Made by a program: the position numbers and the translations under genes. The notes beneath the pieces are model-generated. The model was not told where the DNA came from and did no database searches. It saw only the letters and a list, made by a program, of their open reading frames with translations. Shown piece after piece: positions 16,219 through 23,900 of a DNA stretch of 23,900 nt. Source of the DNA: Acidithiobacillus montserratensis. GTDB taxonomy: Bacteria; Pseudomonadota; Gammaproteobacteria; Acidithiobacillales; Acidithiobacillaceae. Each line of letters starts with the position of its first letter. The stretch's first letter is position 1. The DNA is taken from contig NZ_JABBOU010000088.1 of assembly GCF_018853465.1 (NCBI RefSeq), positions 1-23,900 on the forward strand, written 5' to 3'.

Positions 16219-16566
16219 AAAGCAATGCTCATGCCAATATTTTAACTGGCTGTTAAAAATGAATTTTTTAAATTTAACTGCGTCAATCTGTCGCTTCAGC
16301 CCGACGCGCTGCACCAGAATTGACCGCAAACAATGCCACGAAACGTCATGCAAGCAATGCCATGTTTTGAGCAGGAGATTACAACAGTCTGAAAATATTA
16401 ATTTATCGTCAAATCCTGTTAAACTGATGCGGCAAACGGGGCCTGGTGAGCAAGGTCATAACAAATATGATGGCGTCGCTGAATAACAACAGCATTATTT
16501 ATGGGCTCCACGAAGCTCATAACCAGCTTTTGAAAAAAGCTTCAAACACATGAAAAGGATGAGTTT
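16219..16566. other. Divergent intergenic region between opgG and the flavoprotein gene
   Basis: These 348 bases hold the upstream regions of opgG (-) and the flavoprotein (+). The part near opgG is very AT-rich. A TTGACG on the - strand near 16283 could be a -35 element, but I could not match a good -10. On the + strand, AGCTTTT and AAAAGCT (16525-16541) form a small inverted repeat about 25 bases before the flavoprotein start. No RNA gene or longer ORF was recognised. Confidence 0.5.
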
Positions 16567-18486: not shown

Positions 18487-19151
18487 GATGTTACCTTATT
18501 ATCCGGCAGGATATTGTCCACAAATCGCCGTGCATCCGCGAGTTCATCCGCACAAATATGATGATCCATGGGATAGGTATGCGTACTGAGCACATACCCC
18601 TCTGATTCGAGGATTTGTCGGGCAATTTCCATATAATGCAATGGCAGAACGGGATCGGAACGGCCATGCCCCCAAAAAATCGGGACAGACTGTTGCGCTC
18701 TGGGAAGCTGCTGACGTAACGGCAGATAGGCGCTGAGAGCCAGCACGGCGGCCAGGGGATAAGCCTGATGTAAAGCCAGATAGAGAGACATCGCTCCACC
18801 CTGTGAGAATCCACCGAGAATCAGGGGCTGACCATCGGCTTTTTCATGATCCAGCAACAAAGCCAGGCGTTCTCCCATTCTTTGCATGCCCGCAGCATCT
18901 TCTTCCGAATCCTGACCCAGACCGTAAATATCATACCAGGCGCGCATTTTGCGCCCGGCGTTGAGGGTGACGGACTGCTCCGGCGCGTCGGGGATGACCC
19001 AACGAAATTGCTTCTCGGGGTCCATATGTTCTGCAAGAGGCAGCAAATCCTCTTTGGAAGCTCCCAAACCATGCAGCAACACGATGCAGGTTGCCATTTC
19101 CTCACGGGCGGGACGAATCCACAAGCCTTCCGGCCAGATGTGTTCACTCAA
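18483..19151 (-). CDS. Alpha/beta-hydrolase, carboxylesterase/phospholipase family
   Basis: A 222-residue serine hydrolase of the carboxylesterase II / acyl-protein thioesterase-like family. It starts with the oxyanion strand IVLLHGLGASKEDLLPLA, has the PDAPEQSVTLN and MRAWYDI segments typical of this group, the nucleophile in GGFSQGGAMS (about residue 113), an Asp in GHGRSDPVLP and a His in PMDHHICADEL. All three catalytic residues are in place. Substrate cannot be told from sequence. Its start overlaps the end of the sigma-54 regulator by 8 bases and its stop overlaps the next gene by 4 bases, so the three are translated from one message. Confidence 0.9.
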   Translation of the reverse strand: MSEHIWPEGLWIRPAREEMATCIVLLHGLGASKEDLLPLAEHMDPEKQFRWVIPDAPEQSVTLNAGRKMRAWYDIYGLGQDSEEDAAGMQRMGERLALLLDHEKADGQPLILGGFSQGGAMSLYLALHQAYPLAAVLALSAYLPLRQQLPRAQQSVPIFWGHGRSDPVLPLHYMEIARQILESEGYVLSTHTYPMDHHICADELADARRFVDNILPDNKVTS

Positions 19152-20469
19152 GGGGATGTGCCTCCTTCAAAGCATCCAGTTTACGATACAGGGTGCGTTC
19201 ACTGACACCCAGACGCTCGGCCAGACTACGTCGATCTCCCGGAAAAGTACCCCGTGCCCAGCGCAAATATTGCGCTTCCAGCTCTGCCAGAGGCACCAGC
19301 GCATCTACTCCGGGTGGTTTCTGCGCGCCCTCTTGGGGGAGAGATGGCGCCGGCTGCAAAGCCGGGGGTAAATGCCGGGGAAGAATCCACTGCTCCTCGG
19401 CCAGCAATGCGGCTCTTTCGAGAATATTGCGCAACTCCCGGATGTTTCCCGGAAAAGCATACCGTTTCAGTAACTGCAGGGTTTCCGGATGCAACTGCAA
19501 GCCCTTGGCCACCGGAATGCGCTGGAGGATGGCTTCGGCCAACAGGGGGATGTCGTCCAGACGTTCACGCAAAGCCGGCAAAGTGATGGGAAACGTGTTG
19601 ATGCGATAGTAAAGGTCCTGCCGGAAGCGCTCTTCGGCCACCATTTTTTCGAGGTTGCGGTGGGTGGCGGAAATCAGCCGGAACTGAGAACGCAGAGGCT
19701 CTACTCCCCCGACCCGGCGGAACGTCCCGGTTTCTAGGAGGCGCAGCAGCTTCACCTGCAGGCTCAGGGGAATATCACCCACTTCGTCGAGAAACAAAGT
19801 ACCCCCGTTGGCTGCCTCCACCAGACCGGTTTTTCGCGAGTGAGCCCCCGTAAAAGCCCCTTTTTCATGGCCGAATAGTTCACTTTCAAAAAGTGTTTCC
19901 GGCAAACCGGAGCAGTCTACCGTAATGAAAGGACCGTGATGCCGGGTGCTGGCCTCATGGACAGCCACTGCGGCGAGTTCCTTACCGGTTCCGGATTCCC
20001 CGAGCAGCAGCACAGCCGCTTCGCCGGGAGCTACCCGCCTGATCAGGCGTATCATTTCCCGCCAGGCTGGTGATTGTCCGACCATGGCAGGCGCCGTGCG
20101 GACATCATCCGGGACGACATTGAGCAGTTCCAGAAAGTAAACCACTTCGGCCCGCTCATTGCGGATGGGATATAAATCAATCCGGGTGTTCCCGACATTG
20201 TGGGTATGCACCACATGCTGATCTACACCCGTCTGCTGACAGGTATCCAGAGGACAATGATTGCCACTCTGCTGACAGGAAAATCCTGCCTCCGCCATGA
20301 TTTCGGCACAACGCCGTCCTTGCAGGGGTTTGCCATCCCCAAAAGTCCGTCGATAGGCCTGATTGGCGGCCAGGACCGTGTAATCACTGCATAAGAGGAC
20401 TGCCGGGGTACTAAAACAATCCAGTAATGAAGTCATTTCCGGTCGTAATTGCTTGAGCAAATCGGTCAT
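19144..20469 (-). CDS. Sigma-54-dependent activator with Cys-rich PAS sensor
   Basis: A 441-residue bacterial enhancer-binding protein. Residues about 13-118 form a PAS-like sensor carrying Cys54, Cys65, Cys72 and Cys77 around HCPL, a pattern suggesting redox or metal sensing. The AAA+ domain has Walker A GESGTGKE (157-164), the sigma-54 contact loop GAFTGA (204-209) and Walker B GGTLFLDE (222-229). The C-terminus has a Fis-type helix-turn-helix ([16 protein letters not shown]). All parts are intact, so it should activate sigma-54 promoters. No receiver domain is present, so it senses its signal directly. The divergent promoter at 20671 is an obvious target. It heads the operon with the esterase and CopD-like genes. 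Confidence 0.92.
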
Positions 20470-20501
20470 GAACCCTCAACAATCCGGTGTGTGCCCTGAC
20501 A

Positions 20502-20510
20502 ATTGTAGCA
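20502..20510 (-). promoter_or_regulatory. Extended -10 promoter of the regulator operon
   Basis: On the - strand, TGCTACAAT is a good extended -10 (TGn plus TACAAT) placed so that transcription would begin about 25 bases upstream of the regulator start at 20469. It overlaps ACAATTGT, a perfect palindrome at 20499-20506, so an autoregulatory site is possible. The -35 hexamer at standard spacing is weak. Confidence 0.45.
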
Positions 20511-20529: not shown

Positions 20530-20543
20530 TGTCAATTTTGACA
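20530..20543. promoter_or_regulatory. Candidate enhancer (activator-binding) inverted repeat
   Basis: TGTCAATTTTGACA has perfect 6-base arms around TT. It lies about 155-165 bases upstream of the expected sigma-54 start site, a usual distance for an enhancer-binding protein. A second, related site (TGACAATTGTAG, 20497-20508) lies about 33 bases away. An AT-rich stretch (about 20617-20660), which could help DNA bending, separates them from the promoter. Binding is inferred. Confidence 0.4.
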
Positions 20544-20670
20544 GTTTGCCGAGCCGTCGCTGTCTGCTGATCTCCACCGGCTTCACCTTCAATGTTCACG
20601 AAAACTAGCAACGTCATGAATAATATATGCTTTTAAATTATAAAAATATTGGCATATACACATCTGAAAA

Positions 20671-20686
20671 TGGCACGGACTTTGCT
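20671..20686 (+). promoter_or_regulatory. Sigma-54 (-24/-12) promoter
   Basis: TGGCACGGACTTTGCT matches the sigma-54 consensus TGGCACR-N4-TTGCW at every fixed position, with GG and GC separated by the required 12 bases (20672-20673 and 20684-20685). Transcription should start near 20697, about 27 bases before ATG 20724. A sigma-54 activator gene lies divergently next to it. This excludes the longer in-frame starts at 20649 and 20670, which would lie upstream of or within the promoter. Confidence 0.88.
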
Positions 20687-20723
20687 GATACTGCGTATTC
20701 GTGAACTGCTCAGGATGGAACCC

Positions 20724-21440
20724 ATGATTTTCAGACAACTCTGCCATGCGCACAAAGGCACACTCAGTTATCTGCTGGGTGATCCTGTCACCAGGGAGGC
20801 CGTTATCATTGATCCGGTGCCAGAACTTCTGGACAGCATGACCCGTTTCATCGATGAACGGGGGTTAATCCTGACCTATATCCTGCAAACCCATTACGAT
20901 GTGGAGCAACTTGTTGCCGGAGAGCAGTTGAAATCGGGCAGCGCTGCCCGCATGGTCGCCCACGAAAGCACTAAGGATGCGGCCCTGGCTCTGGATCTGC
21001 GTCTGCGCCACAAGGACATTCTCTATTTTGGCGAGCAAAGCCTGCAGGTATTGCATACGCCGGGACACAGTCCTTGCGCAGTGACTTACTACTGGGAAGA
21101 CCGCCTGTTCACCGGCAAGACCCTGCTGGTCAACAGCACCCTGCCCTGTCCCAGCAGCGATGCCACACGCATCTTATATCAAAGCATTACTCAGCAATTG
21201 ATGACTCTCCCGGGAGAAACTCTGGTTTATCCCGGTCTGGAAAATAAAGGAAGACGCCTGACCAGCGTTGAAGAAATCCGCCGCAAAGACCACTGGTTCC
21301 GTAATCAACGCGGGCATCGGGAGCTGTTTGAAAAATACTCCCGACTGTTCAGCACCAGTCAAGCTGTAAAAAACCCCGGGGCACCGGATGAAGAGGTGCA
21401 CCGTTATAGTCCGGATCGTAACGCTCCGGTTTCTTTGTAG
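20724..21440 (+). CDS. ETHE1-like metallo-beta-lactamase-fold protein with degenerate metal site
   Basis: A 238-residue protein that resembles persulfide dioxygenases (ETHE1/PDO) along its length: MIFRQL, YLLGDPVTREAVIIDPV, VLHTPGHSPCAVTYYWEDRLFTG, TLPGETLVYPG and ENKGR. Yet key ligands are changed. The THxHxDH motif reads THYDVEQ (only H57 kept), GDALL is GKTLL (Asp to Lys132), and YPGHDYKG is YPGLENKG (His to Leu172); H115 remains. Of the iron ligands of ETHE1 (two His, one Asp), the Asp is lost. It is intact as an ORF, so it may be a pseudoenzyme with a binding or sensing role, or have a different activity. Start ATG 20724 has AGGA 8 bases upstream. It ends 10 bases before cydA. Confidence 0.85.
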   Translation: MIFRQLCHAHKGTLSYLLGDPVTREAVIIDPVPELLDSMTRFIDERGLILTYILQTHYDVEQLVAGEQLKSGSAARMVAHESTKDAALALDLRLRHKDILYFGEQSLQVLHTPGHSPCAVTYYWEDRLFTGKTLLVNSTLPCPSSDATRILYQSITQQLMTLPGETLVYPGLENKGRRLTSVEEIRRKDHWFRNQRGHRELFEKYSRLFSTSQAVKNPGAPDEEVHRYSPDRNAPVSL

Positions 21441-21450
21441 GAGGATGTTC

Positions 21451-23085
21451 ATGGATATGTTAATCAATCCCACGGTGGTCGAGCTTTCGCGCCTGCAATT
21501 TGCGCTTACCGCTCTGTACCACTTTTTGTTTGTTCCCCTGACCCTGGGCCTGACCTTTATCCTGGCCACCATGGAATCAGTGTATGTCATCACCGGAAAG
21601 CCCATTTATAAGGAAATGACCCAGTTCTGGGGCAAGCTGTTCGGAATCAACTTTGCCCTGGGTGTGGCTACCGGCCTCACCATGGAATTTGAGTTTGGCA
21701 CCAACTGGTCCATGTACTCGCATTTCGTGGGCGATATTTTTGGTACACCCCTGGCCATTGAAGGGCTGATGGCCTTTTTCATGGAATCCACTTTTGTGGG
21801 CATCATGTTTTTCGGCTGGGATCGGATCAGTGCCAAAGCTCACCTGGTCGTCACCTATCTGGTGGCACTGGGCTCCAATCTCTCCGCCTTATGGATTCTG
21901 ATTGCCAATGGCTTCATGCAGGATCCCCGGGGCGGCACCTTTGATCCCAACACCATGCGCCTGGAATTCAGCAGCTTTGTGCAACTGATATTCAATGAGG
22001 ATGCCCAGGCCAAGTTTGTCCATACTTCCATCGCGGGTTTTGTGACCGGCTCCATGTTCGTCATGGGGATCAGTGCCTTTTACCTGCTCACCAACAAGCG
22101 CAAGGACATCGCCCTGCGCTCCTTCCGTATTGCGGCTGTTTTCGGCGTGATTTCCACCATTGGTGTAGTCACCCTGGGTGACGCCCTGGGCTTTATTGAT
22201 GCCAAGGCCCAACCCATGAAAGTGGCGGCCATGGAAGCCATCTGGAATACCGATTACAACACGGCATCCGCCTCCTGGAATCTGATTGCCTTTCCAGACA
22301 AGACGGCTGGGGAAAACCTGTTCGAAATAGGTATTCCCTATGTATTGACGCCTTTGCTGACCCATTCCGAAGACACGGTCATTCCCGGCATTCACCAACT
22401 GGTGGATGAAGCCAAACCCAAGGTGGTCAATGGCATCAAGGCCATGGTGGCGCTGAAGGAATACAATCATGACCACAGCAACCTGCAGGCTCTGGCGACC
22501 TTCAAGCAATATCAGGCCGATATGGGTTACGGCTTCCTGGCCATGCAGTACGCTCCCGATCAGGATCTGAAAAAGGTCGATGCCGGCAATATGACCAGCG
22601 TGGTGGACAAGACCGCACAGGAAACCGTTCCCAATGTCTGGGTGGAATTCTGGGCTTTCCGCATCATGGTGGCTTTTGGTTTCATCATGCTCGCTATTTT
22701 CGCCTTTGCGGCTTATTTCAGCCTCAAGAATGATATCGAAAAACATCCCCTGTTGCTGAAAGTGGCCATGTGGAGCATTCCCCTGCCCTGGTTCGCCTGC
22801 GAGTTCGGCTGGATTACCGCCGAAAATGGCCGGCAACCCTGGACGGTGTACAACATGCTACCCACCTTTGTTTCTGCCTCCAGTCATAGCGTCGGCTACA
22901 TGATTTTTTCCTTGATCGGCTTTGTGCTGCTCTATAGCTCCTTCATCGCCGCCGAAATGTATCTGATGTTCAAATATGCCCGGCTCGGCCCGCAAAGTTC
23001 GCATCACGGGCATGACAAGGCTCCGGCCGGTGGTGGTATGGCAGCTCAGCCTGCTTTCGCCAAACCCAGCCTGAACAAGCAATAA
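21451..23085 (+). CDS. cydA: Cytochrome bd ubiquinol oxidase subunit I
   Basis: A 544-residue quinol oxidase subunit that carries the heme groups and quinol site and reduces O2 to water at the inner membrane. Visible are the heme ligand His in TALYHFLFVP (residue 24), KFVHTSIAGFVTG (second heme ligand His), FRIMV (Met ligand) and the quinol-site motif ENGRQPW. The length (E. coli 522) suggests the long Q-loop type. Start ATG 21451 has a perfect AGGAGG (21439-21444) 6 bases upstream, which overlaps the stop of the preceding gene. The frame is open further upstream but overlaps that gene. It is therefore probably on the same sigma-54-driven message, followed by cydB 12 bases on. A short His-rich tail (SSHHGHD) precedes the C-terminus. 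Confidence 0.97.
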   Translation: MDMLINPTVVELSRLQFALTALYHFLFVPLTLGLTFILATMESVYVITGKPIYKEMTQFWGKLFGINFALGVATGLTMEFEFGTNWSMYSHFVGDIFGTPLAIEGLMAFFMESTFVGIMFFGWDRISAKAHLVVTYLVALGSNLSALWILIANGFMQDPRGGTFDPNTMRLEFSSFVQLIFNEDAQAKFVHTSIAGFVTGSMFVMGISAFYLLTNKRKDIALRSFRIAAVFGVISTIGVVTLGDALGFIDAKAQPMKVAAMEAIWNTDYNTASASWNLIAFPDKTAGENLFEIGIPYVLTPLLTHSEDTVIPGIHQLVDEAKPKVVNGIKAMVALKEYNHDHSNLQALATFKQYQADMGYGFLAMQYAPDQDLKKVDAGNMTSVVDKTAQETVPNVWVEFWAFRIMVAFGFIMLAIFAFAAYFSLKNDIEKHPLLLKVAMWSIPLPWFACEFGWITAENGRQPWTVYNMLPTFVSASSHSVGYMIFSLIGFVLLYSSFIAAEMYLMFKYARLGPQSSHHGHDKAPAGGGMAAQPAFAKPSLNKQ

Positions 23086-23097
23086 GGAGTCAACATT

Positions 23098-23900
23098 ATG
23101 GATCTTTATATCGGACTCAAAGTATTGTGGTGGGTACTGCTGGGCGTACTGCTCATGGGGCTCGCCATCATGGTGGGCATGGATATGGGCGTCGGCACTC
23201 TGCTGCGCTTTGTCGGCAGAAATGACGGCGAACGCCGCCAGGCCCTGAATGTGGTCGGCCCGCACTGGGATGGCAATCAGGTCTGGTTCATTCTCGGGGG
23301 CGGTGCGATATTTGCCGCCTGGCCTACGCTCTATGCCACTTCTTTTTCGGTGTTTTACATTGTCATGATCCTGCTGCTGTTCAGCATGATTCTCCGGCCG
23401 GTGGCTTTTGAATATCGCTCCAAAGTGGCAGCCAGCAAATGGCGGGACTCCTGGGACTGGGTGTTTCTGGTCTCCGGCTTTCTACCCATGTTTGTTTATG
23501 GTGCGGCCATCGGTAACATTCTCGAAGGCGTCGGCTTTCATTTTGGCTGGGATGGTCAGTATTACCAGACTGAGTCATTTATCTGGTATCTGCTCAATCC
23601 CTTTGCCATTCTCAGTGGCCTGCTGGCGGTCAGCATGTCTATCTATCAGGGCGGCGCCATGCTGATGCTGCGAGGTACCGACCCCATCTCCAGCCGGGCG
23701 CGCAACTATGCCAGCACGGCCGGGCTGGTGGCCATAGTGCTCTTTGTGATCGGTGGCTTCATGATTGCCGGTATGCCTGGTTATCGCCTGATCAGTGGCG
23801 ATCCGGGTATGCCCGCCAATGCGGTGAGTGGTCAGGTCGTGCATTTGGCATCCGGTGCCTGGCTGGATAATTATGCGGCCCAGCCGATTTTGTGGCTTGT
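23098..23900 (+). CDS. cydB: Cytochrome bd ubiquinol oxidase subunit II (partial)
   Basis: Starts at ATG 23098, with AAGGAG 9 bases upstream and 12 bases after cydA. The first 267 codons are in the window; the rest is beyond the end. It matches E. coli-type CydB closely: MDMGVGTLLRFVGRND, PHWDGNQVWFILGGGAIFAAWP, LYATSFSVFY, RPVAFEYRSK and LLNPFAIL. CydB is the second core membrane subunit, pairing with CydA. Whether a small CydX follows cannot be seen. Confidence 0.97.
   Translation, partial: MDLYIGLKVLWWVLLGVLLMGLAIMVGMDMGVGTLLRFVGRNDGERRQALNVVGPHWDGNQVWFILGGGAIFAAWPTLYATSFSVFYIVMILLLFSMILRPVAFEYRSKVAASKWRDSWDWVFLVSGFLPMFVYGAAIGNILEGVGFHFGWDGQYYQTESFIWYLLNPFAILSGLLAVSMSIYQGGAMLMLRGTDPISSRARNYASTAGLVAIVLFVIGGFMIAGMPGYRLISGDPGMPANAVSGQVVHLASGAWLDNYAAQPILWL

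Follow-up and report, generated by a model that had tools for sequence, protein, structure and literature searches.

A probable sigma-54 switch of the FisR type in Acidithiobacillus montserratensis, serving quinol oxidases and including a probable pseudoenzyme of persulfide-dioxygenase descent

The stretch of DNA analysed here (the window) is one whole contig (C166; NZ_JABBOU010000088.1) of 23,900 nucleotides (nt) from the 2.83-Mb genome of Acidithiobacillus montserratensis, and it ends in the cytochrome bd genes cydA and cydB, which are preceded by the gene for an MBL-family protein, pMBL, and by the divergent gene for a sigma-54 activator, REG. We read this locus as, probably, a FisR-type sigma-54 switch for quinol oxidases that includes a pseudoenzyme related to persulfide dioxygenases. 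The promoter, the upstream dyads and the gene order are conserved across the family, pMBL has lost most of its metal ligands while keeping a conserved cysteine, Cys118, and pMBL is reused in front of cyo-type oxidase operons.

In the mechanism that we propose, sigma-54 RNA polymerase would transcribe pMBL-cydAB from a -24/-12 site at 20671-20686, and REG would bind two dyads 128-174 nt upstream of it, and would be set off, in the manner of FisR, by sulfane-sulfur modification of cysteines in its N-terminal part (C54/C65, perhaps C72); cells oxidising reduced sulfur would in this way make a quinol oxidase, with pMBL handling persulfide via Cys118 as a sensor partner, buffer or relay. If the signal is indeed sulfane sulfur, the locus would couple sulfur oxidation directly to which terminal oxidase is made and in what amount, an open question in sulfur oxidisers, and persulfide biology would gain a conserved pseudoenzyme whose conserved cysteine is new; a sigma-54 promoter alone would be no news.

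The sigma-54 promoter of the pMBL-cydAB operon

The promoter and the genes that follow it are arranged as listed below.

20671..20686, + strand: -24/-12 promoter TGGCACGGACTTTGCT (site match, family conservation, genome scan and controls; orthologous 5' end mapped)
20724..21440, + strand: pMBL, MBL-family protein of 238 aa, with HDEQHKL at the ligand positions HHDHHDH and Cys118 kept (homology, ligand alignment, dN/dS)
21439..21444, + strand: AGGAGG Shine-Dalgarno sequence of cydA, overlapping the pMBL stop codon (TAGGAGG at 21438-21444)
21451..23085, + strand: cydA, cytochrome bd subunit I (PF01654, 541.6 bits)
23098..23900, + strand: cydB, cytochrome bd subunit II, incomplete because the contig ends here (TIGR00203, 277.7 bits)
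20639..20651, + strand: weak IHF-like site with 1 mismatch, tentative (pattern scan)

The site TGGCACGGACTTTGCT, which the initial annotation had matched to the sigma-54 consensus, has GG at -24 and GC at -12 spaced by 10 nt, lies in the 254-base gap between the REG and pMBL genes, occurs as a single copy genome-wide and predicts a transcription start at about 20697. A looser pattern, TGGCAYRNNNWTTGCW, is found at 8 places in the 2.83 Mb, against 0 for a reversed control pattern, and rpoN is encoded once in the genome (507 bits). The best start of pMBL is the ATG at 20724 (MIFRQ...) and not the mechanical TTG at 20649.

The family sample comprised 29 genomes, among which an MBL-family match was found in 28 and REG in 26; REG and pMBL are divergent neighbours in 23, with cydA next after pMBL in 21 of these. 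A GG-N10-GC site that matches at 10-13 of 13 positions is retained at all 23 REG-pMBL loci, starting 49-58 nt before the second pMBL codon; the consensus fit and the proposed comparison with related genomes both came out in favour of the site. As controls in the same 23 upstream regions, the reversed pattern reached at most 9/13 and the opposite strand at most 10/13, and among 4600 dinucleotide shuffles at least 10 matches were reached in 323, at least 11 in 50 and at least 12 in 2; the 23 loci are related and hence do not amount to 23 independent trials. The three genomes in which REG was not detected (G019, G023 and G024; 71, 91 and 61% complete) have no close ligand-deficient pMBL either: G019 gave no MBL match, and the best matches of G023 and G024 carry the canonical ligand set. 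The -24/-12 promoter is established, and a chance match in an operon served by an unseen promoter, which has nothing beyond its bare possibility to recommend it, is made extremely improbable by the conservation, the controls and the 5' end mapped in Acidithiobacillus ferrooxidans.

The operon layout claimed earlier, an MBL gene ahead of cydA and then cydB, with an AGGAGG just behind or over the MBL stop, is borne out by the coordinates: pMBL ends at 21440 with its stop codon inside the AGGAGG of cydA, which starts at 21451, and cydA and cydB are adjacent, as in a cytochrome bd operon. TAGGAGG with the 10-nt gap was recovered by script in 18 of the 21 cydA loci, a 19th, the frameshifted L016, being read by eye. 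A simple sigma-70 scan of the + strand from 20625 to 21500 found no site, in line with the earlier remark that no internal promoter was seen before cydA.

The central claim is already known in a close relative. According to the accessible text of Moinier et al. 2017 (PMC5506826), the 5' ends of the cyd operon of A. ferrooxidans ATCC 23270, whose first gene is AFE_0956, were mapped by 5' rapid amplification of cDNA ends (5' RACE) in sulfur-grown cells; a sigma-54 promoter before the first gene and a second, sigma-70 promoter further upstream were reported, AFE_0957 was proposed as activator, an IHF site was predicted, and RegA binding was shown. A further report, again as far as its accessible text goes, gives a higher cydAB level in A. 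ferrooxidans on sulfur than on Fe(II) (PMC2754497). The printed promoter sequence is identical over 117 nt to our locus L010, which has the gene order of the window, and with the 5' end mapped this makes sigma-54 control of the cyd operon not new as such. In A. montserratensis, the conserved site and the 5' RACE of the orthologous operon support sigma-54 control of pMBL-cydAB, with the divergent activator as its likely partner. The published account differs from ours in reporting the extra sigma-70 promoter and, in its accessible part, in not calling the first gene a pseudoenzyme and describing no dyads, FisR-like cysteines or cyo-linked copies; our search of the open-access literature, which left most subscription journals outside, found no description of a FisR-like cysteine step, a pMBL pseudoenzyme, the upstream dyads, the reuse at cyo or the REG-pMBL pair of other gammaproteobacteria.

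It could be argued from the two A. ferrooxidans 5' ends, one of them sigma-70 (PMC5506826, accessible text), that cyd is transcribed mainly from the upstream sigma-70 promoter (and RegA), with the sigma-54 promoter playing a minor part. We consider this unlikely: the sigma-70 stretch in print is inside reg, 592 nt ahead of the pMBL ATG, and no more than a 17-nt core can be aligned to the window, against a -24/-12 site kept in 23/23 loci.

The activator REG and its candidate binding sites

The divergent gene and the two dyads that stand between it and the promoter are the following.

19144..20469, - strand: REG, sigma-54 enhancer-binding protein of 441 aa with N-terminal C18, C54, C65, C72 and C77 (PF00158, 227.5 bits; GAFTGA)
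20497..20510, no strand assigned: distal dyad TGACAATTGTAGCA, imperfect, a candidate for REG binding (block conserved when 23 upstream regions are aligned)
20530..20543, no strand assigned: proximal dyad TGTCAATTTTGACA, candidate REG enhancer (conservation of TGYCA-N4-TGRCA)

REG has the domains of a FisR-type activator, with the PF00158 and GAFTGA features given above and an HTH_8 match of 22.1 bits (cut-off 22). It had been described as an intact, divergent sigma-54 activator with a Cys-rich PAS domain, of which the activation domain and the conserved cysteines stand; the PAS label is tentative, since the N-terminus scores 21.2 bits with PAS_4, under the Pfam cut-off of 23.1. C18 is present in 23/23 family orthologs, C54, C65, C72 and C77 in 22/22 readable ones and C27 in 15/23. 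The genome has 17 activator-domain matches, 13 of them strong (at least 161 bits), and the REG sensor domain is found once in it; a search with that domain returned 24 proteins, those with names belonging to Acidithiobacillus and Igneacidithiobacillus.

The C54-x10-C65 step of REG equals the 11-residue step between C53 and C64 in FisR of Cupriavidus pinatubonensis, the third cysteine of which is C71. By these spacings and domains REG may be likened to a FisR-type activator, and a thiol or sulfane-sulfur signal may control it. In the accessible parts of the reports on C. pinatubonensis FisR (Li et al. 2017, via PMC8614764, PMC9774590 and PMC7315123), a C53-C64 tetrasulfide is formed (PMC8614764) and three conserved cysteines take part (PMC9774590); that protein, like REG, is a sigma-54 activator with a sulfane-sulfur cysteine pair at the same step, and it activates sulfide-oxidising genes, the enzyme group ancestral to pMBL, whereas the output of REG would be a terminal oxidase and a ligand-deficient dioxygenase relative. 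In Acinetobacter baumannii, too, FisR is a sigma-54 activator, divergent from a pdo1-sqr operon, and CydAB also rises with sulfide, although there CydAB is not presented as a direct FisR target in the accessible text (PMC7315123).

A somewhat unlikely rival, though one to be taken seriously, keeps sigma-54/REG control and has the REG cysteines sense another cue, such as redox state, oxygen, a metal or the quinone pool, for example through a disulfide or metal binding. It is favoured by the invariance of five cysteines, including C72-x4-C77, in the readable REG orthologs, by outputs that are respiratory oxidases and not sulfur enzymes, and by the RegBA redox control that, in the accessible part of PMC5506826, also reaches the A. 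ferrooxidans cyd operon; the FisR-like cysteine step and the descent of pMBL point instead to sulfane sulfur.

The starts of TGACAATTGTAGCA and TGTCAATTTTGACA are 33 nt apart, and TGYCA-N4-TGRCA occurs in 23/23 upstream regions, against 16 of 4600 shuffles. When all 26 dyads of the genome were scanned for a -24/-12 site of at least 10/13 at 40-320 nt (3 of the 26 lying too close to a contig end for a full one-sided scan), only the window (13/13) and the weak locus L187 (10/13) qualified. Sequence comparison supports the dyads as REG binding sites, and REG is predicted to bind them. The second, CIO-type cydAB was considered as a REG target and rejected: no dyad was present in 29 of 30 upstream regions, other blocks being conserved there, and the lone match came from L075, a locus with an unreadable start.

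pMBL, a ligand-deficient relative of persulfide dioxygenases

By sequence, pMBL is assigned an MBL/persulfide-dioxygenase fold: it matches PF00753 with 25.8 bits (cut-off 22.7), and its residues 1-188 score 125 bits against the persulfide dioxygenase 4ysb and 84.5 bits against ETHE1 4chl, while its closest named relative among the matches listed is from A. marinus (80% identity). These matches place its descent among the persulfide dioxygenases. It differs from ETHE1-type enzymes (PDB 4ysb, 9rhq, 4chl) in that their HHDHHDH ligands (H-x-H-x-D-H...H...D...H) are absent from the HDEQHKL of the window: five of seven metal ligands are replaced, a sixth varies among orthologs, and the replacements differ between orthologs. 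With five of seven ligands lost pMBL should no longer bind the catalytic iron, and it is probably a pseudoenzyme.

Of 839 homologs found, the 120 listed were examined for ligands; HHDHHDH is kept in 74 and not in 46. Cys118, which stands three positions behind the fifth ligand, is found in almost all ligand-deficient homologs (44/46, a count that replaces 35/35 in 50 chosen sequences) and in few canonical ones (6/74). In one set of loci read it was present in 26/26 ligand-deficient and 0/3 canonical proteins, and in 7/7 cyo-linked ones, the sets overlapping. We infer that the role of pMBL may lie in persulfide handling through this cysteine.

That pMBL is instead an active enzyme with an altered metal site or another substrate strikes us as quite unlikely. 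Purifying selection (ratio of nonsynonymous to synonymous substitution rates, dN/dS, of 0.09-0.37 in eight ortholog pairs) would suit such an enzyme, as would an AlphaFold model that is confident over residues ~1-190 (mean predicted local distance difference test score, pLDDT, 85.3; residues 211-238 below 50) and the retention of much of the ligand set in some ligand-deficient homologs, e.g. HHSHHHR; the loss of five window ligands, the inconstancy of the sixth and the varied replacements tell against it, and probable pseudoenzyme status is the reading that we retain.

Three further observations concern pMBL and its relatives. In locus L016 (G001:C164) pMBL is frameshifted, possibly by sequence error, and the visible parts of REG and cydA look intact. 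In the genome of A. montserratensis itself, contig C108 (G000; L091:6634-10558) groups a canonical persulfide-dioxygenase-like gene (ETHLHADH) with a CRP-type regulator and with a third cydA; over the 1 kb preceding this cydA no -24/-12 site of at least 10/13 was found. Finally, P0036, P0041, P0047, P0057, P0063 and P0065, whose ligands read HHSHHHR or HHSHHHK, form another ligand-deficient group; those with names do not belong to the Acidithiobacillaceae.

Reuse at cyo operons and relatives beyond the family

Seven genomes (G004, G005, G013, G014, G017, G020 and G026) have cyoAB-type genes headed by a pMBL paralog, the identity of cyo resting on PF00115 for subunit I (tested on G004 and G002) and COX_ARM for subunit II (tested on G004). 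Together with G002 these make eight cyo-linked loci, of which all except G005 have a perfect dyad, and where the pMBL gene is intact the -24/-12-like site begins 48-55 nt before its ATG; a dyad inside several of the cyo-linked pMBL genes was discounted, the coding sequence being conserved at that place. In G002, G004 and G005, REG stands beside thiC (Pfam-tested on G004 only), and a search for cydA gave no match in any of these three genomes. G004 has a dyad and a -24/-12-like site before pMBL-cyo, and G005 has imperfect dyads only, with a 9/13 site. The G002 locus was reached by searching for the dyad first: all 14 dyads were checked, and one, with a 10/13 site 133 nt away, precedes the remains of a pMBL gene (29% over 156 residues) and cyoB. 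As a separate observation, a pMBL paralog in G005 (C139; L094:5016-5717, - strand) is the first gene of a bc1-type cluster, in which Pfam recognises cytochrome b and Rieske, and has neither dyad nor -24/-12 site.

Outside the family, a scan of genome contigs with a single pMBL found no relatives. A second scan used an alignment (A1) with homologs whose ligands read HHSHHHR/K and returned six loci; L150-L152 (Novosphingobium), at 26-31% identity, were left out of the comparison. The three that were examined, L147 (HyVt-519), L148 (Thiogranum) and L149 (NAT125), come from gammaproteobacterial metagenome-assembled genomes; in each, a REG-like gene is divergent from pMBL, which is preceded by a dyad and a -24/-12 site (11/13 in L148 and L149 by scan, 10/13 in L147 by eye). 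A small protein follows pMBL, Tll0287-like in L149 (78 bits) and similar-looking in L147 and L148. In L149 cydA is next after it; in L148 the contig ends and cydA is on another contig; the L147 genome gave no cydA match.

A bolder generalisation, which we offer tentatively as possible and not as probable, is that aerobic respiration is switched by sulfur through a portable cassette of two parts, REG and pMBL. In it pMBL would have given up its iron site and gained a persulfide-reactive Cys118 in exchange, and would sense or carry sulfane sulfur beside the quinol oxidase, the cassette standing before two unrelated oxidases (bd and bo3-type), persisting in G014 without a detected cydA and occurring in other gammaproteobacterial lineages.

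Several points weigh against the switch as proposed. The role of REG, both binding and activation, is predicted by comparison. The dyad alone is unspecific, with 26 places in the genome against 10 for a reversed control. In L149 the REG-like protein carries Ser where REG has C65, and A. baumannii FisR, in the accessible text, is without the regulatory cysteines (PMC7315123); the ligand-deficient proteins P0082 and P0085 are without Cys118. Two genomes, G012 and G014, keep REG, dyad, -24/-12 site and pMBL with no adjacent cydA, a thiC-like sequence standing downstream in its place (L210, L211; G012:C418, G014:C97); G014 (90% complete) has no cydA match, and G012 a partial one on another contig. 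The cyo-linked sites are weaker, five of eight reaching at least 10/13, one lacking GG-N10-GC and one a perfect dyad. The A. ferrooxidans account, as far as it is accessible, reports a sigma-70 promoter and RegA binding at cyd and a cyo operon that is sigma-70 dependent (PMC5506826). As to purpose, bd is described, in the accessible part of PMC7315123, as refractory to sulfide, yet cyo belongs to the haem-copper oxidases (PF00115), and the idea of a 'sulfide-proof oxidase' therefore cannot explain the switch in full; an oxidase supply matched to sulfur-derived quinol would fit both bd and cyo.

Two other sets of sigma-54-like sites came to light. The second, CIO-type cydAB operon of A. montserratensis has a perfect -24/-12 site (G000:C168:39874-39889; L038, L059, L089), and 23 of 30 CIO-type cydA loci in the family have an upstream site of at least 10/13; conserved GGTT...AACC blocks there suggest another activator. 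Elsewhere in the window, a -24/-12-like site (16221-16236, - strand) hugs the start of opgG/mdoG (PF04349; ATG ~16209), as it does at L131:9311, L132:1858 and L133:2146, and in all four loci the predicted 5' end falls 1-2 nt before the ATG, which suggests a leaderless sigma-54 transcript.

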